DNA of 64,000 bases, taken from the NCBI GenBank assembly GCA_002221725.1, contig NJFT01000102.1, positions 1 through 64,000 of the forward strand, given 5' to 3'. Under the pieces are notes generated by a model. That model saw nothing but the letters and a program-made list of their open reading frames with translations, was not told where the DNA came from and did not search any database. The DNA comes from Scedosporium boydii. Its lineage: Eukaryota; Ascomycota; Sordariomycetes; Microascales; Microascaceae. The position numbers were made by a program, and so were the translations under genes. This document shows positions 33,317-64,000 of this stretch, piece by piece; the first letter of the stretch is position 1, and every line of letters begins with the position of its first letter.

Positions 33317-33919
33317 TGTACTTATTTTCCTTGTTTTGTACTGTCTAGATACTTATGTACTTGCGAAGATACTTTAAGGAGTCGCACTCCCAATGTCCTC
33401 GAAGGCCTGCACGCTCCCAACCCTGGCCTGAAACAGGATTAGGATCTTCGTCCGAGCGTATTAGGGCAGTACTAGGGTGCAGGTACTGGAACGCTAATAA
33501 TAGACAGGTAGCTTCCATATCCCCGGAGATAAGGGGTGGAGCTCATCACTCATAGGTAGCAAGAGACCCTAGCCTTCAGACAAGGTGTATTTGAATTCGT
33601 CTTCTGCCTTTCCTTGTACCTGCATTACCCCGATTTCATCTTGAATGCCAACACCAAACGTATGATACAACTCTCTATTACCTTCTCAAGGCTTCTTTCT
33701 TACAGGAGGGCCGGATTGTATTCTTGCCCGAGAAATATGGGGAATTCTTACTCTTAACGACTTCCAGTGGATTCCCTCTTGTTTTCTACCATCTCCTGGT
33801 GCCCGCACTCCACTGTGCCTCCACCAAGAGAGCCTACAGGCCAAGCAGTTACACTCCCCATCTCTCTACCTAGCACTTCTCTAATATATAGAGTACCCGA
33901 ATACGGACTTTCCACGGAT

Positions 33920-35192
33920 ATGCCTCGAAAAAAGAGGAAGCTCCCTGCAGATACAGCGAGGGAACAAGCCTCTATAAGGCGACCCCAAAAGCCACTTATA
34001 TGCCCACACGGCTGCGGCTCGCCTATCCGCCCACGCAGCCTCCGTGATCATGAAAAGAGCAGACATGGCATGCATGGCGGCAATGAGCCCGCACCCTGTC
34101 CACACGGCTGCGGCGAGCCTATCCGCCCACTCAGCCTCTATAATCATGAAAAGAGCAGACACGGCATGCACGGCGGCAATGAGCCCACACTCTGTCCACA
34201 CGGCTGTGGTGAGCCTGTCCATCCACGCAGCCTCCGTGGGCATGAAAAGACCAGACACGGCATGCACGGCGGCAATGAGCCCACACTCTGTCCACACGGC
34301 TGCGGCGAGCCTGTCCGCCGAAATAACCTCCGTGAGCATGAAAAGAGCAGACACGGCATGCACGGCGGCAATGAGCCCACACTTTGTCCACACGGCTGTG
34401 GTGAGCCTGTCCATCCAAGCAGCCTCCATCGGCATGAAAAGACCAGACACGGCATGCACGGCGGCAATGAGCCCACACCCTGTCCACACGGCTGCGGCGA
34501 GCCTGTCCGCCGAAATAACCTCCGTCAGCATGAAAAGAGCAGACACGGCATGCATGGTGGTAACGAGCCCGCACTCTGTCCACACGGCTGCGGCTCGCCT
34601 ATCCGCCCACGCAGCCTCCGTGATCATGAAAAGAGCAGACACGGCATGCATGGCGGCAATGAGCCCGCACTCTGTCCACATGGCTGTGGTAAGCTTGTCC
34701 GTCCACTCGGCCTCCGTGACCATGAAAAGAGCATGCGGTGTCTAGCCTTCAGAAGGAAATATACTCTCCAGAGCAGGCACCAGAAGGAAGTTTACCCGGT
34801 GGGGAGCAAAGAAAATCAGGGGCTGCGGCCTCGTAGTGGTTGGCTATACTACATGCAGGAGTCGGTAGACAGCAAGTACAGGCTCGCCATGGTGCTGGAC
34901 TACGATTTAGCTGCCGCTAGACAAGAGGTTCCTGTCTTTTGGTTCTATAAAGGGTTAGTTGGTATATCAGCTGTAGCTGCTCTTTTCACTAATATCTATT
35001 AGAGCAAATGGCGAGGCGTTAACGGAAAATATTCTTGAGTTCGATTGCAGCATCTGCGATAATCCTTCCGCATGCAACGAGCTGGATAATGTTGATTTTG
35101 ATGTAAAAACTGAAGATATCGTTTGGGCCAACGAAATGCTCGACGCACGACCATTATATGGGAATGTTGGGGGCGGATATGAGTGTGACTGA
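33920..35192 (+). CDS. Tandem hypervariable zinc-finger-like repeat protein
   Basis: Exons 33920-34953 and 35003-35192 (49 bp intron) give 407 residues. NLS-like MPRKKRKL start. Residues 28-275 are eight head-to-tail 32-residue repeats, each C-x3-C-x11-H-x4-H (CPHGCG..., HEKSRH) joined by the constant linker GMHGGNEP. The DNA repeats (96 bp) span 34001-34768. Repeats differ almost only in the six or seven residues before the first His, equivalent to C2H2 helix positions -1 to 6, with Leu at +4 invariant. The C-terminal 130 residues hold a globular-looking segment (GWLYYMQESVDSKYRLAMVLDY) and an acidic tail with CSIC. Sequence-specific DNA binding is inferred; linker and spacing are not canonical. 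Confidence 0.8.
34001..34768 (+). repeat. Eight 96-bp coding tandem repeats
   Basis: Period exactly 96 bp (32 codons). Most positions are identical between units; differences cluster in one 24 bp window per unit. Because the period is a multiple of three and stops are absent, both strands and several frames stay open, giving spurious long antisense frames. Confidence 0.92.
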
Positions 35193-49332: not shown

Positions 49333-50392
49333 ATTCTGACCCAGATCCAGAAAGTCTGGCGTTCCTGAGGGAGCTTACCGATCCCTAGCTCTTTATCGCC
49401 AGTCCGAGCGACGGAAGACGACTATTATTTCAAAGGCAGGGGCAAAGTTTAACACCAGAAATATTTATATATTCTCAACTTGAGTCGAGGTATGTACAAC
49501 AAGTGGTTGAAACGACGGACTGTGGCTGAGCAAAATAACAGGACGGTCGTGAACACTATTACATCCCCTCCAACGTCGTCGGTGCTATTTTGGTTGTCTA
49601 GCAAAGGAGCGAAGGTATGATAGGGAGTACATTCCTCGAGGGAATTGTTAGTGGTTTTTCGATTTGCTTTGCACGAATTGCATGGGGGTGATTTGGAATT
49701 AAAAATTGCATACCGCAGTGAAATGAAGAACTTCGTTACTAACGTGAGGCCGCAATATCCACGTGACTTAGACAATTCTCGCGTTGTGATCACGTGACCC
49801 TTCCCTCCTCCAATTATTGTCTGTTGGTCGAGTCCATCAGGCATGTACAGGCTACAAGAGTCTCGAGGGTGGACGAGTGTAGGAAAAGGGAGTTCTTGAA
49901 ATGTAGAGCGGCATTTACCCCTCCGATCGGCACCCTCAGTATTACATGCGACAGCTACCGCCATCGCGTTGGGAGTCCGAGGTCTTATCCAGTGATACGT
50001 TGTGGAGGAGACGTTCATCGTGGTCACGGTTACCTCTGAGCGTAATTATGCACAATCCGTATGGTATATATAAATAAAAGAAAAAATATTTTGAAAACCC
50101 TGGCCGGTCGGAGGAGCATGGGCTTGCCTGTGTCTCGACATGCGGAGTAATGATGTGGCTGCTTTTCATTGGTCTCCGCGAGTGATCTCACCTTCTCCTA
50201 TGCTGAGTCTCCATCTTATCTGGAACCACATCAAAACACGAATGAATTTTTAGCCAGCCCATAAAGAGCCCAATCCCCATGCTCTTCGCCGCCCGTAGAA
50301 GCCAAAAGGTTACTTGCTTCATTCCATTCTTCCTTCCAAGAAGCCCTAGGCTCTGACTATTTTTTGCATTCTATTATCGGTTCTTCAATACA
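49333..50392. other. Intergenic, no gene supported
   Basis: Contains two CACGTG boxes (around 49758 and 49791), which suit bHLH regulators, but no convincing exon. Confidence 0.4.
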
Positions 50393-50899
50393 ATGATGAA
50401 TACCCAAAATCAAAACAACTCTGCTCGCACCACTAGTGGCAGCACCAGCACTCAGACTAAATCTGGCAACCCCACCGCATCCAGATGGAGTGAGGGTACC
50501 TTTGGCCCCGCCAAAAGCGACGCCTCTTCTATGATCGAAACGACTACCAGCGGCGAAGGCTCCTCAACCGCGGCCTACAGTGGCGTCTCTGAGGAGGCAA
50601 CAGGCGTCACGGCCGCGAAAGCCAATATAATCAGTATCTCGGGTCGTGGGGCGGGAAATACACAAGCACATGGTTCCACCATGACGGCTCTGACCTCCCC
50701 CGATACCAAGCAACAAGGCGAAGACGACGTTAAGATCGATGAGCTGTTCTCTGGGGTCGAACCAGGTGTTCTGCAGGTCCTGATCTCGTCGGGAAGGGGA
50801 GCCAAGAAATCCCGTGGCGAAGATTCACTTCCAGCGCTGCCTGAAGATGGGGAAAGTGTCCAAGAGGAGCCAGCCGAGCCGAGGGCCGCAGAAACCTAA
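50393..50899 (+). CDS. Small disordered protein
   Basis: Intronless, 168 residues from ATG 50393 (second Met follows at once). Rich in Ser, Thr, Gly and Gln; two ISSGRGA/ISGRGAG motifs (about residues 84 and 131) and an acidic tail. No folded domain. The stop codon overlaps the last 4 bp of the convergent APH-like gene. Confidence 0.5.
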   Translation: MMNTQNQNNSARTTSGSTSTQTKSGNPTASRWSEGTFGPAKSDASSMIETTTSGEGSSTAAYSGVSEEATGVTAAKANIISISGRGAGNTQAHGSTMTALTSPDTKQQGEDDVKIDELFSGVEPGVLQVLISSGRGAKKSRGEDSLPALPEDGESVQEEPAEPRAAET

Positions 50900-52747
50900 C
50901 TTGAAGCGACTCTCTTTCCAGCCATCCAGTCCACGTACTTTCTTATCAACTTAACAGCCGAACGCTGCTCTCCATCTATCTCATCTTGTTTCACCGGTGG
51001 GGCTTTCTCTCCAAACACTTCTGCCAACTGAGCCATATAGTTGCTGCGGTCTTGGAGCTTGGTTGTGATAACTTCCTGTGTATTCGGAGACCATAAAAGT
51101 GAAACTGGATAGATGGTTGCAGGCATCTGAGGGAAGTCGAACAGAGGACTCAAGCGGTGTCTCGTGAGCCGATACATAGCATTTTTCGAAGCTAAGCAAC
51201 AGTTAAACCATACGCGTTGAGAGCTCCAGGTCTCATGTATGATGCTGCTCAATTTTGTGCCACTCAGTAAAGCCGTCAGAGGAGACATATCCATGTCACG
51301 TTCCTCTTTTTCGAAAACATTCATAAAATCTTTATAGATCATCTCATACTTAGTGCCATCTTCTGCGATCTCATCGATAGCTTCTTTAGAGAGCCACATA
51401 GGCGGATCCAGCATATCAACCGGGAGGGAAACCACCCATTCGAGGTCCAGGATTGCTGCAATGGTTCCATCATCCTCAACGAAAATATTACTCTGATGTA
51501 GATCAGTGAACTGGAGAACGAATGGTCCATAGCGGCGTTTTCTGCATATGAAATGATGGGCAGTAGTGCGAAGAAATGACTTGGTGAACATCTGCATCCG
51601 ACAGTCCGATTCGCTAAACGTGGCGTTGGGTTCTTGGAGAAAACGATTATCGTGGAAGGTGATCATGTCAGAGATATACGGCTCAACGCACGGATATGTT
51701 TCATCGCGGGCCATTGTCTGGGGGGCGCCGTTGCTCTCGAGGATCATCATGTCGCTCGTTATGGGACGATTAGTTAAGGATATTGTGCTATCATCATTGA
51801 AACGTAGGCAGCCGATTCTCTGTTGAGGAAAGCGATAAAGGGCAAGCAGGATGCGCGAAAGGCTGCTGAATAGGTTCTGCCTCTTGTTCGAGTCGGCCAT
51901 GACAGAGTCCTCGACAGATGACAACATCTTGCCGACGGATGGCTCGATGTAATCCAAGATCATATACCCGCAGGAAAGGTTATGCAGGGGGTTGGTTTGG
52001 GTATAAAATGACGGCACCGGCCGTCGAAACATTGTGCTAACGAGCCTCCGAATAGAAAGGCCGAAGCGGGTGAGGAGTGGCAATTGGCTAGCATGTGTGA
52101 ACTAGAGAAGAGTTAGCTCGTATGCACATCTAGGAAGGAAATAACAATCATACATGGAGGCCACCGTTTGGAAACCCGAATCCGTATAAATGAGGGATAG
52201 GGATAGATGAGCAGTATTCCTGAATCCAGACATAGCTCGCAGTTTCGCATGCTAATTTCTCGTGAATAGAGCCAGGGTGTGAAGACTCAGCCAGCTTTGG
52301 CGGTATGGGGCAGCGGATAGCTACTCGGGTCTCGGGACCAGTTCTGACGGGGATGACGACGTTGAAACCTCCTGTAATCCACTTTATTGGAGGCTGGACA
52401 GTACATGTGCTCGGGTCTAGGCGGAGGTGGTGGGCGACAAGAGATTCGAGTGTCGGTATCTGGCGGAAGAGAGACTTTTTAAAATCTAGGATATCTCTGG
52501 CGCAGTCCTTGCGGTTGAGAACATTGAATTCAGCATCCAACGCTTCTTGGAAAGTAAGGTGCCTACCATCATCGAGCTGAACCCGATGCCTGGGCATTTT
52601 GTAGGAATCTAAGGGTGGGCGGAGACTTGCGAGAAATGAAGCAATAAAAGTTTCTGGAAGAGAGTCTAGAAGCCTCTGAGTTTGCTCAGTCAAGCTGGTG
52701 CTGCTGTCAGATTTGATATTTGAGGCATGGGACTGGGGTTGACGCAT
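50896..52747 (-). CDS. APH-family kinase-like protein
   Basis: Exons 52747-52154 and 52101-50896 (52 bp intron) on the minus strand give 599 residues. Features: ATP-site-like WITGGFNVVIPVRT and VAIRCPIPP (beta strands with the small-residue loop), hinge-like YMILDYIEPSVGKML, catalytic-loop LQFTDLHQSNIFV (Asp and Asn present, but Thr where the family's upstream His normally lies), and ILDLEWVVSLP (metal-site LDxE). Fungal APH-like proteins are abundant and mostly of unknown substrate. The GTTTTCCC... N-terminus to residue 80 is disordered. Apparently intact; activity plausible but unproven. Confidence 0.75.
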
Positions 52748-52905
52748 CAAACTTGAGCCGAATATTTACCGACCACCACAATATAAGCCACGAAAATAAA
52801 GCAAATATGCGTAAACCACGTGATAGCGCCACATCTCTCACGTGTCGGATGGGTGAGGCAGGTGGGGCCTACAACTTCTGGGATCCGAGCACCCAATGCA
52901 GACGA

Positions 52906-53350
52906 CCACGGCCTTCCGACTTTTACGTTGAACATTCCTGGAAGCGAAATCCCGCTGCTTGACATTCGAACCCAGCAAGTAGCCACACGATCATCTCGAC
53001 ATCGACGTGGATTCATGTCTCGACCCTGCGTCCTGGACCAAACGATCCCAGGGCCGGTCCTGAGAGCAACTTTCCCCATCTTTCGGTTCTTACGCCATTG
53101 GCCCGTCGGTCCGTAATTTTTTTCTGCAGACTGACCGCCCGGTCGTTTACAGGCGAAGAAGAAAAGAATGATATAAGTTACGATGTTTCCTCAGTATCTA
53201 GTGTGTTCTTCTAGACTCTTCAGTAGTCAGCAAGTCACTACACTACACGTCACTACACCCTACACTATTAAACAGCCCCCGCGACCCTATCCAAGAACAT
53301 CCATCGGTAGGATCGTAAAAGCACGGTAGTCCGCCCATACGATAGCGAGG
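52906..53350. repeat. Inverted repeat, left arm
   Basis: The reverse complement of 55215-55620 matches this stretch at 75-85% over most of its length. Landmarks: TTACGTTGAACATTCCTGG, ATCTAGTGTGTTCTTCTA, GATCGTAAAAGCACGGTAG. Its outer end is a copy, in reverse orientation, of the last codons of the gene at 55542. Confidence 0.75.
53037..53152. repeat. Oppositely oriented core inside the left arm
   Basis: About 115 bp (GGGCCGGTCCTGA ... GCCCGGTCGTTTACAGG) matches 55369-55472 in direct orientation, although the flanking arms match in inverted orientation. The core ends are themselves roughly inverted (AAACGATC... and ...GGTCGTTT). Confidence 0.6.
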
Positions 53351-53702
53351 TCAGAAATTACCATTTCTCGCTGTGGCCTGAGTACGACTCGGAACCCCAG
53401 ATAACTTTCGCTAACCGAGACCTCGATTCACGCTACCGCGTCCCTGCGTTGTAAGTTTAAGCTCTTCGGTTCCCCCTTATATATATATTTTTTTTATATT
53501 TTGATAGTTTTCTCTCGAGCCGCTTCCAGATACGCAGGTCAATAATTCACAGGAATATTATGTTTAGCAGGCAAGATCCTAGGAACAGTTGCCGTTGTAA
53601 ACGGAACAGCAGACTAGCTTTATGACAATAGCAACAACGATGCCCAAGAGCCCTCATCACTCCCTAGAACCCGAAGCTCATCCTACAGTGAACCCACCAG
53701 CC

Positions 53703-54694
53703 CTAAACCCTCTCTTCTCCATCGCAGTCTTCACACCTTCTCACCCTAATTTGAGCAGACCTCCTTGGATTCCTTCTTCTAGTGATATCTGCAGAGAGCG
53801 TATTGTTTCGTGCCTTGATCCGAGCTGACCGCCTGGGCTCTGTGGCTGTTGGCTTAGTACTGGCCTGTGCTCGGCCAGCGCCGGCTCCTTGCACGGGTCC
53901 TTGGCCCCCCCTTTTCTCTGCATTAGCCAGTGTGGTGTGCAGCCGCCCAAAAGCCGGGCGACCATCGTCCAAAAGTCCATAGAAGGCTACATTGAAATCG
54001 GGAGTGTCCAGGCGGCGACCTGCCCCTTGCTGCTGCTCAAGTCTGGACTCTGTAGCACTTCCCCGTAAGGTTGCTGTCTCTTGGTCTTCTTCAGATACCG
54101 CACCAGATAGCCTATCACCGCCATCACCACATCCTCCATCATAGTTGTGGCTCATTGCCAACTTTAGAGCTTTGTTCTCAGCTGTTATCTTGTCAAGTGT
54201 AACTTGAAGCTGAGCTTTGTTGGGTAGTCTGCTTATTACTTCAGAGTCCCTCTGCAATGACAATGAAGAACGTTGCTCTAGACGCTGTCTCATGCTCTTG
54301 AGCTCCTCGACCCTAGTATTTGGTAAGTACCTAAATTTGCAGAAAGAGGAGCTGGAACTTACGGGATGGCATGCGTCGACACCATCGTATCTTGGCAGAA
54401 ATCGAGCCATCTCTCCACTATTCCCTCCTTGAAAATGATCATAATATCCTTGCCTCCCTGCTGCTGTATATATACCTCCGAATGACCGGGGCAGTACAGA
54501 CAGTTAATGTTCCTCAACGATGTGCGAAAGAAGCTGCTCCAGCCTCCATCCCAGATCAACACCTTCATAACTCCTTCGCAATAGCCCCAGCACGGCCATA
54601 CATCATCCGGAAACCCCATAGAAAATATTTTCGTAAAGACCGCTATTATGGGGAAGTGAGCAAGGTTGCTATCAGGGGAGTTATCAGGGTTCAT
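53703..54694 (-). CDS. Hypothetical coiled-coil protein with basic tail
   Basis: Exons 54694-54363 and 54312-53703 on the minus strand (50 bp intron) give 313 residues. The first exon is globular, with Trp/Cys and aromatic residues (DDVWPCWGYCEGVMKVLIWDG). The second begins with a coiled coil (VEELKSMRQRLEQRSSLSL; QVTLDKITAENKALKLAM), then Gly/Gln-rich sequence and a basic C-terminus (PRRSARIKARNN, RRRNPRRSAQIRVRR) of the kind that contacts DNA. It is the only gene inside the 52.9-55.6 kb inverted repeats. No family recognised. Confidence 0.5.
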
Positions 54695-55214
54695 AGTTTG
54701 TGGGGTGTATGATCAAGGAGTAGGAGGGTTGTTAGTTAGGTGGGGAGAAAAAGGAGGGAAGGTTTGTCTCATCCGTGGGAGGGGAGCAGCGCAGTTTATA
54801 TATTTGACTTGCCCCGGTTCTAGAAGCGTGCTTACACAGCCACGGGGCAAGCCGTGGCTAGAATCTTTTCCCAACGGGATCGGGCTCATATGACTTAGGC
54901 CATTCTTAAACCGAGTGGTTCGGGAAGGCGGGTGGATGACAAGGAGAAGAGGTGGCCATGGCTGGGAGAGAATTAGCTGGGTGCCGCATTGCAGTTCTCC
55001 ATTGCAGCTGAGTTTCCCGAGCAGTCAGTCGCGAACTCTGCTGACGGACCTTCGGTTTCGGGGGTAGTCGACATGCGCCACGGATCGACGAGGGCCTTGG
55101 CGGAGGTGGTGCGAAAGAGGGGAAGCCTGTCTTGTCCTTGAGAGGGCTCATGTGTCCAGGTCCCGTGCTTGCATAAGCTTGGAGAGAGCCGTCGTTTAAG
55201 TGTTTTGTCTACGT

Positions 55215-55620
55215 GGGTATGGGCGGTCGACTACCGTGCTTTTACGATCCACCGATGGATGGTCAGGGATAGGGTCGGGGGCGGTTTGTGTAAGTGACTT
55301 GCTAACCACTAAATAGAAGAACACACTAGATACTTGAAGCAATCGTTCTTTCCTTCCAGCACTTCCGATCGCAGGGTCGGTCCTGAAAGCGACCTTCCCA
55401 TTCTTCTTATGCCATTGGTCCGTCAGTCCGTTATTGTTTTCTGCTGGGACTGATCGCCCGGTTGTTTACAGGCCACGCAAGGTCGCGCATGAATCCATGT
55501 CGATGCCTGATCCTCTCTCCGCTCGCGACATGATCGTGTCGCTACTCGCTGGGTTCGAATGTCAACGGCAGCGGGGTTTCGCATTTCCAGGAATGTTCAA
55601 CGTAAATGTCGGAAGGCAGT
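55215..55620. repeat. Inverted repeat, right arm
   Basis: Partner of 52906-53350; contains its core at about 55369-55472. The outer end overlaps the 3' end of the coding region at 55542. Confidence 0.75.
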
Positions 55621-55970
55621 GGTTCTCTGCATTTTGGGCAGTTGACTCCTACCACTTTTATCGCTCGAGTGCTGCGATCCCATGAACCGAAGTAATAGTA
55701 CCAAGCATGGCTACAGGAAGACTCCGAGCGATTGAGCTTATTCCCAATTTGTTTGAAGGTACGGCCAGCAGCCCGATGATATATCATTTTATCTAGTAGC
55801 TCTGGCCAACTTCGTTTATTAGGACGGGAAGTTAGATGCTTCGATTGGGGTGCGGCCTCTTGGTGAGTTTCTAAGGGCTCTGGTGCTGATCGGGGGGTAT
55901 TGGTGCTGGCCCTGCGGGATCGCTCCCGAGAATTTGGTGCTATGGCTCGCTGATTGAAATGGCCAAACAT
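55542..55970 (-). CDS. Myb/SANT-like protein with C-terminal Cys finger
   Basis: 142 residues from the minus-strand ATG at 55970 (MFGHFNQRAIAP). After a basic, Ser/Pro-rich lead, residues about 55-95 read SWPELLDKMIYHRAAGRTFKQIGNKLNRSESSCSHAWYYYF, i.e. three short helices with spaced aromatics like a Myb/SANT domain (shown in fragments: RSWPELLDKMIYHR, TFKQIGNKLNRS). Near the end, NCPKCREPLP then EHSWKCET supply a CxxC and a later Cys. An open reading upstream lacks an ATG. DNA binding is inferred; a copy of its last codons sits in the left inverted-repeat arm. Confidence 0.5.
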   Translation of the reverse strand: MFGHFNQRAIAPNSRERSRRASTNTPRSAPEPLETHQEAAPQSKHLTSRPNKRSWPELLDKMIYHRAAGRTFKQIGNKLNRSESSCSHAWYYYFGSWDRSTRAIKVVGVNCPKCREPLPSDIYVEHSWKCETPLPLTFEPSE

Positions 55971-56704
55971 GGGCGGCGGGTTATCTGGTCGGAGCTCTGG
56001 ATACTGAAGGCTGCACAAGATCCAGGCAGAGACTGCTTTTGCAGGTAGTCTTATGTCTACGCAGTCTGGGCTTCTGTGTGGAGGCTTTGATCGGGGAGAG
56101 GAGAAGATAGGTTCAAGCAAAAGTGGTCGGCGGAGTCTGTGGCTGGCCAGGTTGCTAACCTATTGGCTGGAAAAGAACGGAGAATAAATGAGTTGAATGA
56201 GAGGAAGAAGGGAGAAGATGGGTCGAGGAGGATGGAGGGGGAGGGATGGCCTTAAGTAGCAAACGCCCGGCTAACTATCAGACCTGTTCACATGAACAAG
56301 GGAGAGAGGGTGGGGGTTGCTCAAGCAATGGGAAGGCCAACTAGAGGTAGCTCGCTGGTGTCTCACGCTCGGCGGGCGTCCTTCCGATCCGGAAGAGTTC
56401 AAGGTTAACGCATTTGACGGGTACACTGGGGTATCGTGGCAGTGCTGTATTCCTAGCCGTCCACGAGGTGAAGGCCAGTCCCGAATCCATTGATCTTGAT
56501 CCCATACGGAGAGAAGAGGAGTTGGTTGCCTTGGTGGAACGTAATGTGGGGAAGAGTGCCCGGCTGCGGCCAGGGGGTACCTCTTTCATTTAGTTTCTTT
56601 CTTTTTAATAAGTTCCCCTTAAGCACGACTGTCCTTCCTCACAGATCCGCAATACCTGAAGCGATCTATATAGCGTTGTAGAGATACCTGTCGGATAGGA
56701 CTAT

Positions 56705-57601
56705 CTAATGAAGGCATATTGCCCTATTCTCTACACACATGACAGCATCTTCCGAAACGTCCTGACTGCGTCGGTGTCTTACCCATCGGAGCACGGGGAT
56801 ATCAGCCCGATATACTTGGTCCGGGGAAGGATATGGGCGAAGTGAAGCATCAAAAGTAACTCTGAAGGGATGGAACCTACTGTCCATCGCTATACCTTCG
56901 ATGTTTCCGAAACGATATTTCCAGTCGCAGGCTGGGCAGGGTTTGCGACGATCTAGGCTAACTATAGCGCTGCGGTACTCAGATGGGAATACCTCGTGGT
57001 GATGGAGAGGGCACTGGCGCTGAAATTTCGAAGTCGGTACCGGACAAAATTCGTATCCATGCCTGAAAAGCACCCATAACTCGTTGAGCTCTCCGAGTTG
57101 AATAATGTCCCAGATGCCGCGGCAAGAGAACTCGGGGGGTAAAACGACTTTTTTTAATCGTCTGAGAGACTTCTCTTGTGGCTGTGCTAACTGGGACCCG
57201 TGATCTAGACCGGTAATGAAGAAAAAGTCGTAGTCAAAATTGGTAGCGATCTCAAACCCTTTCTTTGTAGAGAACTTGTCGCTGTTGTGTCTCAAATATG
57301 ACTCGGAACTCTCACGGCATGCCCTCCTCAGCCCTTCCGTGGCAGTGGAAATTGCAGAAACTGCAGAAACTGCACTGTTGTCTAAATGAATGTTGATGAC
57401 TCTAGGAATAGCTGCTGAGAACTCCCATATCATCTCGCGAAGTTCAGCTGGAAGTAGAGGAAAACATTCGAACCGCGTTGGTGGCGTGGGCCTTTGGCCT
57501 TTAGCCCCCGGGTTTTCATCGGCGTGATCTCGACTTTCCTGATCCTGTCTACCAGGTGACCGAGCCTGGTGCTGCATTTTCAAAATGTTATCCGCATGCA
57601 T
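56705..57601 (-). CDS. 2EXR domain protein
   Basis: Single exon, 298 residues from the minus-strand ATG at 57601. After a charged lead, residues 43-70 read FECFPLLPAELREMIWEFS, the 2EXR signature (FxxFxxLPxELRxxIWxxa...PR), followed by VINIHLDN, a helix with RRACRESSESYL, and LRRLKKVVLP. A C-terminal CPACDW pair is present. Function of 2EXR proteins is unknown; they are abundant and variable in ascomycetes. The 4.7 kb element begins 30 bp upstream of this ATG, so its native promoter has been displaced or replaced. Confidence 0.85.
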   Translation of the reverse strand: MHADNILKMQHQARSPGRQDQESRDHADENPGAKGQRPTPPTRFECFPLLPAELREMIWEFSAAIPRVINIHLDNSAVSAVSAISTATEGLRRACRESSESYLRHNSDKFSTKKGFEIATNFDYDFFFITGLDHGSQLAQPQEKSLRRLKKVVLPPEFSCRGIWDIIQLGELNELWVLFRHGYEFCPVPTSKFQRQCPLHHHEVFPSEYRSAIVSLDRRKPCPACDWKYRFGNIEGIAMDSRFHPFRVTFDASLRPYPSPDQVYRADIPVLRWVRHRRSQDVSEDAVMCVENRAICLH

Positions 57602-57630
57602 ACCAAAAGTTGGTCACGATTTACGAAGAT

Positions 57631-57750
57631 CGGTTAGATGGTTCTGAAGTTGGTAGATTTGTGCTTACTTATAAATGGTAGTTTTGGACCCGAATTGTGG
57701 TGGCCCCAGTGAATCGGGTTCCACGGCGACACGGCGAAGGGTTACCAATG
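57631..57750 (+). repeat. Left terminal inverted repeat of the DUF3435 element
   Basis: Matches the reverse complement of about 62240-62367 at roughly 80%, with an 8-10 bp indel in the middle and more divergence at the inner end. Confidence 0.75.
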
Positions 57751-58058
57751 GGACCCGGCTTGGCGCTGGGTCGATTCTCATTGGATACGTCTATCCCCCC
57801 TTTTGGAATGTGAAACCAACCGACAGTGGCTCGAGAAAATGGGGTTGAGGCAGTGTCATCTTCTCTTAGCTTCTAATAATAACTCAGTAACTGTACCCCT
57901 ATTAGATGTTGGGCCGCCTAATCTCCACTGTTTTCTACTCGGCCTCCATTTCTCAAGCTTACCTAATATAAGTCACTAATAGTACTGTTGTTAACAATTT
58001 TCAAGTAAAGAAACCCTAGATCATCTCATTCTAGTACCAAATGCTCTCCTCATCGATA

Positions 58059-61000
58059 CTAAGATAATTCTTCTCGCGCTTCGTATTCCTTAATCCGCTC
58101 TTCACTTATCGTAGTTTCCTTCTGCCAACAACTCTCCTTCTTAGGGCGTCCCTTCCACCTTACAAAGTACTCCGCTTTCCGACGACGTATTCGCTTTTCT
58201 ACCAGTTCCACTCCTCGATGGTTGCCTCCATGGTTAGAGTAGGCCTTTTCGAACTCGTGAACTAACACTGGGTCTATATTATGACGTTCTACCCAGGAGG
58301 TCTCTTCATCCTCGAAGCCTTTCCACTCCACAAGATAAAAGGTTTGTCTTCCGTTGCTCCATTTAGCTAGCAACTCTTTAACCTCCCATATGTTATCATC
58401 TTCGTCGATTGCGGTAGGCTTATCGGGTTCCTTCTCACTGTCGCTGACGCTTCGGACGCAGGAGTGTGCCTCTGCTACTATGCCTTCCCCCTTCTCGATG
58501 GAGGATACGTCGGTTTGAGGCTCTGAATCATCTATGATGCTACCCTCTCGGGGACCGGAGGGCGTTTCAGCGGCCACCTCAAGTGGGAGTGGGGACCTGC
58601 CATCGAAAGAGGATAGCGGCGTCTCAAGTACGGATCTGTCTCCATACATACTAGTAGGAGAACTCGTGGACGACAGATCACTATTCGAGAGTAACGTAAG
58701 TGGATACATGTGGACCGAGCTGGGCTCCGAGATGCTCGGGGTCCTAATGGTGTTCTGGGACGGTTCCACACAGGGAGGATAACAGCTTTCCGTATTATCG
58801 GCCACAGGGATATCCGGTCGAGGTAGCGGCTCGGAACAAGTGTTCGAGCCGCTTCGTTTGTCCCAAGATCTACTGTTCTCATCGACACCGCACGGGAAAG
58901 CCTCGCCTATTGACGTAGATGTTCCTGCGAAAGATTCTGAGCTCGGCTCTGGGGTCAGAGTTAAATCAATGATTATCGGGTTCCGGGGATGGCTGGAAGA
59001 GTCCAACCGCTCCACTGTTTGGAGTTGAGATGATCCTCCTAGACCATCAGCTGCCACGTCCTTCTCCTCGCAGCTTAACCCAGGCTTCTTCAGTCGTGGA
59101 TCTATCCGATCTAAAAATGATAGAATTTCCGTATCGATAGGCGACTGGTCAGGAAGGATTATAGGAGAGATGTCACTGCGACTCTTTTCTTCGGTGCTAT
59201 CATTCCACCTTTTTGACACTTGCACGAGAGATTCCTGCGACCGCAACTCAAGAGTATGGCTCAACTTCCTTCTCTTTAGAACGGGCTCTTTTGGACTGGT
59301 GGAATGTGGCGTTTCGATATGTGTATGGCCAGGGGAAAACGCAGACTTGTCATCACTGCTCTTTCTGGTTCCTTCACCCCTCTGCTTTCTTTTTCGCCGG
59401 CTACCAGGGGGAGTCGGCAGTATTTCTTGGCTGGTCTGGCCGTTGAGGTGGTGCGCTTCTGACATGTGTATTAGCCACTGGCAATAGCCGTTGATGGTGG
59501 TCTCGGTGTTTTGCTTTTGGCATTCCGGGCATGCAAATGGGCTATTGAACTGGCCTCTATCCTTGTGCTCCCGATTCATATGACGTGAGAAACCACTCCC
59601 AGCATTATACTTGGCAGCACAGAAAAAACAGCAAATAGGTATGCCCTTCAAGCGCGACGCACGCGTGACGGGGTTGACGGGGTCGTTCGTTGGGTACGCC
59701 TGGCCTGATGGTAGTATCGGCGCATCATTCTTTCCGTGACACTTCTCGACATGATTGGCCCATTCTGGAGGGCTCCTAATGACATAGCGTCCCAGCTGTA
59801 GGCGCTCACATTCCGGACACGGGAAAGGTTTCTGGAATGTGGTTTCGTTCTTAATGTGGACACGCTTAGTATGTCGAGTCAGATTTTGCCGACTTGAAAA
59901 TTTGCAACCGCACAGACGACAAGTCGAACCCGTAGTTCGAATCCCCATTTCGGTTAAGCACTTATGGGCATCTGGCGTCGGACCGTCCCTTAAGCTACTC
60001 GCTGGTTCTGGGAGGATGCAACGCCTGTGCGTCAAGTAGTTGCAGAGCAGGTCTGCGAATAGTATCGATCGCTGCTCTTCATCGATGTTCTCCTGTTGGA
60101 CGAACTGTCCAATCACTTCTGCGTCTGTGGCGCCATGTGAACGGCGTTTCGGCTTAACGAATTTTGCGTCAGCTAACGTATCTGCAGACTTGCTGGAAGT
60201 CCTCAGGTTATCTGCTGCCTTAAAGTATTCTTTTCGCCCCTTCTCCACCGCTAGTTCCGATAGCTTTAATATAAGATTGTTGATCCTCCCAGCTGCTGCT
60301 TTAGCAATCGGATGAGATGATCCAAAATGCTCGGAGAGTTCGTGATATTCCTTCCTGAGCTTAGATATGTCGTTACGCTTTTCGAAATCGCGGAGGTCAT
60401 CCTCGGTTGGGTAGATTGGGGCCTTTTCGTCTCTCTGGAGCAGTGAATCTCGTAGTAATTTATAGAGTTTCTCGGCGCCTGCTCCGGCGCGGTCGCCGAA
60501 AGCAATTTTGATAAGATTTTCTGCGACACAACTCGGTTGGTAGCTATGCCGGAAGACAGATTCTGTGTTCCCTTGGATATAGCTACGTAGTGCCTTATGT
60601 AGAGCTCCTGTTTCTGTTAATAGGTGCCTAGGTTTGTGTAGCGGAAATCGGCTTACCGGCAAGCCTGCCTCCCGCCCCTATTCGCATAGAGTATGGACGT
60701 ATTGGCTCTCGTGCGCCAGCCACCTCTAACGTCCGGTGCCATATGGCTAGATATTGATTATATGATAATGGAAAGATCTCTTGCTCTAAAAAGCTGTCTT
60801 TCCATCTCAACGGGACGTAATTTGTGTTCTCTAAGATTGGTCGATGGAGTATCTCCTCAAAGGATTCGAAGGGGGTCTCGAAAGCATCGTCACAACGTGC
60901 TTGTACCGCAACAAAGGTTATGAGGCAGAGAAGCGGGAAGGGAACTTTAGTGGCTTTCCAGGATACTCTAAGTCAGTGTCAGCAAACAAGAATTGATTAT

Positions 61001-62027
61001 AAGAAGGCTGCAAGAAAGTACATTTCCATCTTAGAGTAAATCGATTAGTGGAAGGGACATACTTACTTCTCATCTTGAGTCTTGCGAATTATCTTGTCTC
61101 TTCTCTTATTATGTTGTATTGTCGGTACGGCGACAAGCTTTGTTTTCTCTGGATTTTCCGGATCCCGAGCAACTCCTAGTTGGAACTGCTTATATTTGAG
61201 GTTAACCAAACAACCCAGCCTGAAACCACAGATTCCGTCGATGAGGGTGATAGCGTGAAAAGCAACACGTGCTCGGGGTTCACAAGGGATATCTGTAGCG
61301 CGAGTCCAGAGTGTAGTTAATAACAGAACAATATCACTATCGGTCATCTCCTTCTTCTCGAATTGTTGTTCGCGTTTCAATCCTAATATATCTGGGAGTT
61401 TTTCGTGTATCCACTATGTTTGTTAGCGTAGGTTGATGGCGAAGGAATTGGAACTCCTACCTTGGTGATCTCATGTACTGGACCGTCCCCCATTTGTTTC
61501 AGTTCGGTATACTTGAGCGTCCACAAGAGTCTGTCCGCTGGATTTTGTCTTCTCTTTTCCTGCAAGATTGTAGAGTCGGCCATTCCAACTAGTGACTTCC
61601 ACACATTCAGAATTGCGGAAGCCTGAGCGATACCTCGTTTCCACACATATTCCTCTGGCCCTAGAGTTGGGCAGAGGTATCTGGAGTCTTCGGCGTACAT
61701 CTCAAGGAATGTTCGACAATATGCCTTTGCGTCCTCGTCATTTCGACAGAAGTCATACCAAATACTGTTGGGGTCTCTCCCAATGACGTCCGTGAAGTAT
61801 CTATTTATATTAGTGAAATATAACAGAGTAATAGCCTTCCGTGTTGGCAACACTTACGCATTCCAGGAATTCCATGCTCTCTGCCGATGGTACATAGTAT
61901 CGTCGCCGACTTCATATCTATCCGTTGCAAGGTTTGTTCTATTCTGCTGGAACAGCTCTTGTGCCCTTTGTTTCTTTAGGGCTCTATGATTAGGAGGATG
62001 GTCCACGAGAGGTTGGATTTCTTCCAT
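58059..62027 (-). CDS. DUF3435 tyrosine recombinase fused to C2H2 fingers and two chromodomains
   Basis: Five minus-strand exons (62027-61858, 61800-61461, 61413-61067, 60967-60657, 60613-58059) join in frame to give 1240 residues. Residues 1-500 are DUF3435: RTNLATDRYEVGDDTMYHRQ, GICGFRLGCLVNLKYKQ, RPYSMRIGAGGRLA, SVFRHSYQPS, APIYPTEDDLRDFEKRND. The four expected catalytic positions are present (Arg235, Tyr378, Arg381, Tyr414, i.e. R-Y-R-Y). Residues about 617-775 carry Cys/His fingers (CRLCGCKFSSRQNLTRHTKR; CFFCAAKYNAGSGFSRHMNR and two CPEC...H..CH types). Residues about 1128-1175 and 1188-1230 are two chromodomains (TFYLVEWKGFEDEETSW; EYFVRWKGRPKKESCW). The recombinase would move the element; fingers and chromodomains would steer it to sites or methylated histone chromatin (inference). 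No internal stop; apparently active. Confidence 0.88.
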
Positions 62028-62239
62028 GGCTGCGCTGGGGAACGAAGGACCATAAGAGCGCGCGAGAGGCTAAGTTGAGTGAATGGTAGAATTTAGGATC
62101 TAGGAGAATATCAGTTTGAAACTTGAAAGGGCGAGCTGGCTGAATTTATCTCCAAATATGAAGGCTTGGTGCTTGTCTTTATTCTAAACGCCCTGGGGTG
62201 GGCTTTGCAGTTACGTTAATTGTTTAAAACGGCATTGGA

Positions 62240-62367
62240 AACGGATGGTGGGGGCCGGCGCGGCGTGCCGCCATGGAACCCGGTTGACTGGGGCCACCAC
62301 ATTTCGGGATTCAAGGCTGCCATTTATGGTTGGCACAAATCTGCCAACTTCAGGACCATCTAATCCG
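62240..62367 (-). repeat. Right terminal inverted repeat of the DUF3435 element
   Basis: Begins (reading inward) CGGATTAGATGGTCCTGAAG and ends about 210 bp upstream of the recombinase ATG, so it should contain or abut the recombinase promoter. Confidence 0.75.
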
Positions 62368-62468
62368 AGATACGTGAATTAAAGGGAAATAAGTGGGATC
62401 AAATTGAGAGTCCTAATCGCTTGGGGGAATTTTAAGCTACACACCATACTCGTACCAAATAAATCTGT

Positions 62469-64000
62469 TTACATGTTCCTCGCCTTCCTGGACCTGGACG
62501 GGATGGGGGAGTATCGCCACTGCTTCGTCACAGGGTCCAAGCATTCCTTCTCAGCTTCCTTCCACTCCTTCGTCACCCGATCCGCCTTGGCCTGTGTCCT
62601 GGGAGTGAACTTGGCCGGGAAAGGCTCGGGCATGCAGACGAATCCCTGAGTGAGCTTGTTGTGATCAGGGATAATCGGCTTGCCGTTCTTGTCCAGAGCA
62701 GGCTCAATCTTGAAGGCCCACAAAATGCGGGACATGCCGAGGAAAAGACTTCGCTCCGCAACGTGGATACCAGGGCAAATGCGGCGTCCAGCTCCGAAAG
62801 TAAACTGATCACGCTTGCTAGCATCGGGGTTGGCTGCGGCATCCGCCAAGCTCTGGTGGTCGTCCTTGTACCTGTCCGGGTTGAATGTTCGGGGGTCGGG
62901 GTGGCGGACAGGATCCATGTGGATAGCCCAAACGTTGTTCATAACGCCAGCGTTCTTAGGGATAAGGTATCCATCATAATAGTCATCCTCGGTAACAGCA
63001 TGGGGCACGGCTCCAAGAATGGTTGTCGGCATCCAGCGAAGCGATTCCTTGATGCAGGCCCGGATGTATGGGAGATTCGGCTCATCTTCCATCGTTGGCA
63101 TGCGATCTGATCCAATCACACGCTCAATCTCGTCGTATGCCTTCTGCTGGACTTCTGGGAAGATGAGCATTGCCTGGACAAACCCGTACAAGGTGCTAGA
63201 AGTCGTGTCGGATCCAGCCTCGAGCAGGGTTCCGGAAATGTAGGCTGCTTGATCATCATCGAAGCCCTCGGACTTCTGCACATCTACCAACTCCTCGCAG
63301 AAGCAAGGCTTGACGGTGCCATTCTCAACCTCCTCCTTGACCTTGAGCCAGTGGCTAAGGTAAAGGGCCTTCTCTTCCTTGTGAAGCATCTTAGCCGTCT
63401 TCTTCAGAGGGAGGATGAAGTCGGGAAGCATCCTCAAGATTGGAAAGGAGTCAAGGATGGCCGCTACACCAGTTTGGTTGATGTCGGCAAAGGCGGAGAA
63501 GCCTTCAAACAGCTGCTTCATCTTCTCATCCTCGTAGGTTGGCGTCCTCCAGCCAAAGACCATTGTAGTGGTCAAGGCATTGGAATATCGCCGAATGTGG
63601 TAAAGGAATCGGTCCGGGTCGACCAGTAGATCATGAAGCATCTGCTTGTTCTCCAAGACCTGGTACGGCACGTACGACTTTGCGGCCGAAACGTTGAGGA
63701 GACCGTGGATCATCTTACGAGACTAGTTCAGACAGTTAGCAGCCGCACATTGCGCAAAGAGTGGGAAATGCACGGTTCACATGCCGTTCGCCATCGGTTG
63801 CCATATCCCTGAGTCAAAAGTCAGCACAATCATTCTTCATAGCACGCTTGCCGAGGGAGGTGGAACGAACCATCATCAGCACCCTGAGCCCGCCGCTGCA
63901 CAATTCTTGACCGACATACATCTCTTGTCGGTGAGAGTATTTTCCACTTTTCTTATCAAGGAGATCCTTGACTGCCCTGTCGCTTGAAAGCACGACCAAT
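62469..64000 (-). CDS. Cytochrome P450, N-terminus beyond the window
   Basis: Exons at least 64000-63871, 63808-63785 and 63722-62469 on the minus strand. The middle exon is 24 bp. The visible part has SSDRAVKDLLDKKSGKYS, GYGNRWRT then SRKMIHGLLN, the I-helix AGSDTTSS, K-helix KESLRWMP (ExxR), and the heme-binding FGAGRRICPG. The second intron fits only with a GC donor (GCATGT, 63784) and AG acceptor: no GT donor keeps frame. It is probably a microsomal monooxygenase of the fungal CYP2-like group; substrate unknown. The 3' end lies 102 bp from the DUF3435 element. The 5' signal anchor is outside the window. Confidence 0.9.

Follow-up and report, generated by a model that had tools for sequence, protein, structure and literature searches.

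The stretch of DNA analysed here, referred to as the window, comprises the first 64,000 nucleotides of the forward strand of contig NJFT01000102.1 from Scedosporium boydii (assembly GCA_002221725.1; 42.9 Mb, 442 contigs). This contig is called C102, and the other C numbers used below denote contigs of the same genome. The window contains a predicted gene for a DUF3435 recombinase that ends in four Cys/His fingers and two chromodomains. The gene lies on the minus strand at 62027-58059, where five exons joined across GT..AG introns encode 1240 amino acids and a stop codon. It is flanked by inverted repeats of about 120 bp, the arms, one on each side, and the recombinase is the only gene between them. 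The features on which the following argument relies are these, in window coordinates:

62391..62394, minus strand: ACTT, a candidate direct repeat beyond the 5' end, with its partner at 57607-57610, beyond the expected 3' end; suggestive.
57611..62390, minus strand: proposed element, about 4.78 kb long and composed of the two arms with the recombinase gene between them; 5' end from nine aligned arms, 3' end from arm homology (to 57619) and the candidate direct repeat.
62255..62390, minus strand: 5' arm, terminal inverted repeat, begins with ATTTCC; ten further genomic copies.
61858..62027, minus strand: exon 1; begins with the start codon at 62027 (context GCCATGG), which lies 363 bp inward of the element's 5' end.
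61461..61800, minus strand: exon 2; from the gene model and the alignment with the related protein P0002.
61067..61413, minus strand: exon 3; presumed catalytic Arg235 (GFRLG).
60657..60967, minus strand: exon 4; Tyr378 and Arg381 (RPYSMR).
58059..60613, minus strand: exon 5; 850 open codons with Tyr414 (HSYQ), a conserved region, the four fingers, a linker, both chromodomains and the stop.
59451..59921, minus strand: four Cys/His fingers; 16 ligands invariant in alignments with relatives.
58239..58394, minus strand: chromodomain 1 (CD1), residues ~1130-1181; aromatic cage W1132, W1153, F1156.
58074..58214, minus strand: chromodomain 2 (CD2), residues ~1190-1236; cage positions R1189, W1209, R1212, an incomplete cage.
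57619..57736, plus strand: 3' arm, which matches the 5' arm in inverted orientation, with identity in 98 of 120 aligned columns.

The recombinase part of the protein is well defined. The DUF3435 profile (PF11917) matches residues 197-507 at E 2.8e-18 (66.5 bits, against a curated cut-off of 25.8), and it was the only recombinase family that a Pfam scan of the 1240-residue protein returned at E up to 1. Arg235, Tyr378, Arg381 and Tyr414 are all present and align with the GFR, PYSLR and SYQ motifs of P0002; we take them to have the catalytic roles assigned to such residues in tyrosine recombinases. A first-pass annotation of the same DNA had proposed a DUF3435 recombinase with these four residues, and they are found at the numbers it gave. 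The uninterrupted frame of 1240 residues that it also described exists once the transcript is spliced, continuity in the genome being limited to the 850 codons of exon 5. The exon junctions agree with P0002, whose homology spans all four of them in an alignment judged by eye, and the beginning of exon 1 agrees with a further copy on C322, which is similar across the start codon.

Four Cys/His fingers follow the recombinase domain, with the ligands C621/C624/H637/H642, C655/C658/H677/H682, C718/C721/H734/H739 and C751/C754/H772/H777. All 16 are identical in the present protein, P0002 and a second relative, P0003, and likewise in another alignment to which the relative P0004 was added. Pfam finger models match the protein only at E 0.0015-0.008, all under their cut-offs, so that the four fingers claimed earlier are borne out by their invariant ligands and not by the profiles.

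The end of the protein is occupied by the two chromodomains. The Chromo profile (PF00385) matches the whole protein at E 2.5e-12 (46.9 bits) in two stretches, and in a six-frame scan of the genome each of them separately exceeds the Pfam cut-off of 25.1 bits (30.9 for 58245-58388, 33.3 for 58074-58205). The first-pass annotation had predicted this pair and had named the lack of a significant Chromo match at residues 1128-1230 as the observation that would speak against it; the match is there. The nearest solved structure to CD1 is that of CBX5/HP1-alpha (E 1.2e-6), whose Y, W and F, presumably its methyl-lysine cage residues, align with W1132, W1153 and F1156. The CD1 cage is retained in P0003 too. 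The best matches of CD2 are CBX7 and HP1, and its cage positions read R, W and R here and L, W and R in P0003, two of the three cage residues being lost in both. Since the CD2 cage is incomplete, no more than one chromodomain of the pair would be expected to read a methylated histone tail. Identity to P0003 is 66/153 (43%) in the region after the recombinase, 84/165 (51%) in the fingers, 69/302 (23%) in the linker, 33/52 (63%) in CD1 and 32/47 (68%) in CD2. The chromodomains are thus the best-conserved part of the tail, which argues for their being used. No clear nearest kin of either emerged among eight stretches compared, which correspond to nine of the 44 other Chromo matches in the genome.

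Relatives of the protein were reached through searches limited by shared words, which gave P0002, P0003 and P0004 among the matches listed. The closest named relatives among these are P0002 and P0004 from Rhypophila (Sordariales), which are 36-37% identical over the aligned part. They have the four fingers in common with the present protein and differ from it at the C-terminus, where they carry a Zn2Cys6 cluster in place of the chromodomains. P0003, from a different source, has the fingers and both chromodomains in the same order within one predicted protein, and its sequence starts downstream of the recombinase part. A region search with the chromodomain tail found no match and missed P0003 itself, and an alignment search gave P0002 and P0004 without P0003; neither outcome has any bearing on how rare the arrangement is. 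In the same genome, a degraded DUF3435 paralogue on C199 (49000-58900) is 27-30% identical and shows five to six finger-like motifs by eye, and its 530-residue frame contains no Chromo match. Collectively, these four relatives suggest that the fingers are old and that the final domain is exchangeable. A different DUF3435 gene lies at C21:1-10000, near the contig end, in a stretch affected by repeat-induced point mutation (RIP) (TpA/ApT 1.4, 40% GC).

On the window contig, the only arm matches are the 5' arm and its inverted counterpart at 57619. Across 135,120 bases of ten sources, an arm model, R1, picked up only the two window arms at E up to 1; it was built from nine arms including both window arms, which therefore match by construction. 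The exact 3' end of the proposed element is uncertain by about 10 bp, and the ACTT match in the flanks would occur by chance about once in 20 cases by our estimate. Comparison of 57619-57736 with 62261-62379 gives 22 differing columns, nine of which pair a C of the 5' arm with a T of the 3' arm, with only one T to C, one G to A and one A to G; this imbalance is a one-strand bias of a RIP-like or deamination-like kind. A 2EXR frame on the minus strand at 56705-57613 (PF20150, E 3.4e-12) has its first ATG at 57601, about 10 bp outside the proposed 3' end, and the 3' arm may now be the promoter of this adjoining gene.

The 5' arm is also found at no fewer than ten other loci of the genome (on C92, C207, C1, C3, C284, C38, C176, C322, C23 and C255). 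Nine 5' arms, namely the window arm and eight others (C176, C255 and the 3' arm being excluded), were set gap-free on the TTAGATGG anchor. Over the 27 columns inside the edge, the majority base is shared by 4-9 of the nine arms (mean 6.8), against 3-5 of nine (mean 3.9) over the 33 columns outside it. Taken singly, each of the eight other arms agrees with that of the window at 16-22 of the 27 positions inside the edge and at 4-10 of 27 outside. A common edge amid unrelated flanks is the trace expected of a mobile element. The terminal hexamer ATTTCC is present in six of the eight other arms, with five or six of its six bases and within one base of the expected position. The similarity of two copies reaches further inward: on C92 it extends for 255 bp (83%) into the upstream region of the gene, and on C322 it runs through the promoter and beyond the start codon (67% over 414 bp), with a weak match at the protein level to the first 19 residues (13/19, E 0.16). 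These extensions indicate that the arm belongs to the recombinase gene and disfavour the idea that the arms are an unrelated dispersed repeat that flanks the gene by chance.

The stretches around nine of the ten solo arms were inspected; contig ends restrict the inner side to about 6 kb for C92 and to less than 1 kb for C322. No recombinase match was found near the ten solo 5' arms, and their inner ends differ in length; they may be truncated remains, one-ended insertions or the product of another process. Traces of the gene itself occur elsewhere. On C86, there is a 53-codon piece of the linker (64%), and C87 holds a decayed copy of window 58564-58029, embedded in DNA of 24% GC, which contains both chromodomains in order as well as RIP-type stops. 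A second complete copy was not found on C87, where only two of 17 segments, corresponding to window 58564-58029, scored better than shuffled controls in a RIP-tolerant alignment. No arm lies near other recombinase fragments in the stretches of C21, C199, C86 and C87 examined.

As to the surroundings of the copies, GC content in the outer 2-kb flanks is 47.5-53.6% at nine solo 5' ends (C255 not included) and 51-53% at the window copy, while the inner flanks of the solo arms have 47.6-52.7%, with the exception of C322 (39.8% over 888 bp). Seven of ten frames chosen beside solo arms match Pfam families and three match none. The families are Na/H exchanger, HET, ankyrin, MYST acetyltransferase, NmrA, fungal transcription factor and, below cut-off, F-box. 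The window copy is flanked by P450 and 2EXR genes. The only trace of the element found in AT-rich DNA is the decayed remnant on C87.

We consider it probable that the locus is a compact DNA transposon of the DUF3435 class, about 4.78 kb long and made of two inverted arms and one gene. The recombinase residues, the fingers and chromodomains in one exon, the arms, the common 5' edge and the conservation of the chromodomains in P0003 are the grounds for this reading. The recombinase would be expressed from the 5' arm, its fingers would bind the arms, Tyr414 would cut and rejoin at the element ends, and the element would excise and reinsert in the fashion of a captain, as the recombinases of the large fungal Starship elements are called. 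CD1 would then bind a methylated histone tail, of the H3K9 or H3K27 type, and anchor the protein, or the element once excised, to chromatin in a particular state, while CD2, lacking the full cage, would most likely serve protein contact or shape. Insertion guided by chromatin would be plausible. The more ambitious form of this idea, a Starship relative without cargo whose recombinase uses a chromodomain of its own to read histone methylation and so pick landing sites, having arisen independently of chromoviruses, is advanced only tentatively, as we think it rather unlikely. The inverted repeats that flank the gene, the further genomic copies of the arm and the variable protein end among relatives are new with respect to the first-pass annotation.

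Several observations count against this interpretation and have to be set beside it. Histone binding by CD1 is proposed from three cage residues. The surviving 5' ends lie in ordinary DNA of about 50% GC and not in the AT-rich, RIP-marked compartment, so that heterochromatin targeting is unsupported by where the copies are. Yet the lack of AT-rich copies need not exclude such targeting, since copies landing there would decay, as on C87, and escape detection. Facultative H3K27-methylated gene regions would, speculatively, fit both the CD1 cage and the surroundings. The terminal hexamer is not kept in C322 or C23, and the outer part of the arm is absent altogether from C176. All ten other arms were found only as single 5' ends, and genome searches, limited by contig ends on the inner side of C92 and C322, returned no second arm, whole copy or 3'-specific match for them. 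The two window arms are 18% apart, so that a real insertion need not be a recent one; alternatively, the arms may never have been identical. Finally, insertion is proposed from sequence features, among which the 4-bp ACTT is suggestive and short enough to have arisen by chance.

The strongest alternative concerns the role of the chromodomains within the proposed transposon. Instead of choosing the insertion site, they could be used to silence the element itself, to tether it in the nucleus or to contact partner proteins, which we regard as a substantial possibility, though short of probable. The loss of two of the three CD2 cage residues in both proteins would fit such a role, as would the measured insertion contexts, which are not AT-rich. 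On the other hand, the CD1 cage is kept in both proteins at 63% identity, and the integrase chromodomains of retroelements reportedly guide insertion, a finding credited to Gao et al. 2008. The earlier suggestion that the chromodomains choose chromatin targets is plausible for CD1, whose cage is kept, and not for CD2; insertion into AT-rich heterochromatin is not supported by the GC content of the measured flanks.

A second alternative is that the gene is the captain of a larger Starship that extends from 62390 leftwards past 57619, the 3' arm being an internal copy and the true 3' end lying elsewhere. Like Starship captains, the present protein scores over the DUF3435 cut-off, has the R-Y..R-Y residues and is encoded at the 5' end of its element, transcribed inward and bounded by terminal inverted repeats. 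Its start, 363 bp from the 5' end, recalls that of the captain of Sanctuary, which lies about 350 bp from the element edge (PMC12506042). Starships in print measure 15-700 kb (PMC12134995, PMC12289983), and one survey recorded inverted repeats in 18 of 20 elements and direct repeats of 2-12 bp in 19 of 20 (PMC12153272). The size of printed DUF3435 elements, at least 15 kb (PMC12134995), would favour a larger element here as well. Against it, the sole other arm match on the contig is the inverted one at 57619, and at E up to 0.01 no accessory family of the DUF3723, patatin, ferric reductase or NLR type matched any of 28 window frames scanned. These were unspliced single frames, out of 32 with 200 or more residues; the recombinase exon is among the four left out. 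Provided that the 3' arm is the true end, what is observed is an element of about 4.78 kb with one gene and without cargo, where a Starship would have at least 15 kb with cargo, and the four fingers and two chromodomains at the C-terminus further set the protein apart from captains. We judge a larger Starship unlikely, and the first-pass view of the protein as captain of a giant one is unproven, the arms enclosing a single gene.

It is also quite improbable that the locus is a settled host gene, that is, an old recombinase retained for a chromatin task such as silencing or genome defence between decayed, immobile ends. The intact frame and catalytic residues, in a genome where every other copy detected is a fragment, would suit such a gene, and so would the divergence of the arms. 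However, P0003 and the Rhypophila relatives make up a family with changing C-termini, and a purely structural role would not require the catalytic residues. Lastly, a gene-model chimera, in which the chromodomains came from a separate gene, is highly improbable because a single 850-codon exon without a stop runs from Tyr414 through both chromodomains, and in P0003, too, a single predicted protein combines the fingers with the chromodomain pair.

Read as a compact transposon, the locus can be placed among known systems. In Sanctuary of Bipolaris sorokiniana, little is conserved between haplotypes apart from the two ends, 3.8 kb at the start, where the captain lies, and 3.1 kb at the far end, where there is a chromodomain gene (PMC12506042), and Frontier of Alternaria ventricosa is described as running from captain to chromodomain gene (PMC11857905). 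Both thus have their captain and a chromodomain gene at opposite edges. There, the chromodomain is encoded by a gene of its own (ROU50 in Sanctuary), which tens of kb or more separate from the captain, whereas here the two are one protein. It is as if the two ends of such an element had been brought into one chain, a likeness of domain layout.

Chromoviruses (Ty3/gypsy) carry a C-terminal chromodomain on their integrase. The present protein resembles them in that the enzyme joining element and genome ends in a chromodomain, but here that enzyme is a tyrosine recombinase, and Pfam finds no reverse transcriptase, protease or integrase domain in it, the DDE integrase included. Like Cryptons, which were first found in fungi, the element would be a DNA transposon with a tyrosine recombinase. 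It differs from them in its inverted repeats and in having DUF3435 as its sole recombinase match in Pfam; Crypton recombinases are very distant from captains, and inverted repeats occur sometimes in Starships, unlike Cryptons (PMC12134995). No description of a fusion between DUF3435 and a chromodomain was found in the literature searched, most subscription papers being outside the search, in line with the first-pass annotation, which knew of no described recombinase of this kind.

The locus bears on two questions, namely how captains choose insertion sites and whether solo DUF3435 genes are dead captains or small elements. Solo DUF3435 genes outnumber captains, which could stem from missed boundaries or from pseudogenes, a matter described as undecided (PMC12134995). 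Having inverted ends of its own and a domain resembling a histone reader, a solo DUF3435 gene of the present kind would represent a minimal, testable unit with a removable chromodomain, and would link to Sanctuary and Frontier with their separate chromodomain gene at the far edge.

Some further features were noted. Genes for 2EXR, HET and Zn2Cys6 proteins are present, which, like the kinship with Rhypophila proteins, would fit a filamentous ascomycete. Rfam gave no match at gathering score in window 50000-64000, and among viral contigs a scan gave eight pattern matches, none of which was confirmed. The regions 52895-53308 and 55251-55633 contain inverted repeats (49 nt at 92%, 40 nt at 93%, 46 nt at 76%) together with direct repeats, and are perhaps another element. 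At 33758-35002, a 96-bp tandem repeat of 7.6 copies, open in three frames, encodes a repeated finger-like unit of the form CPHGCG...H.

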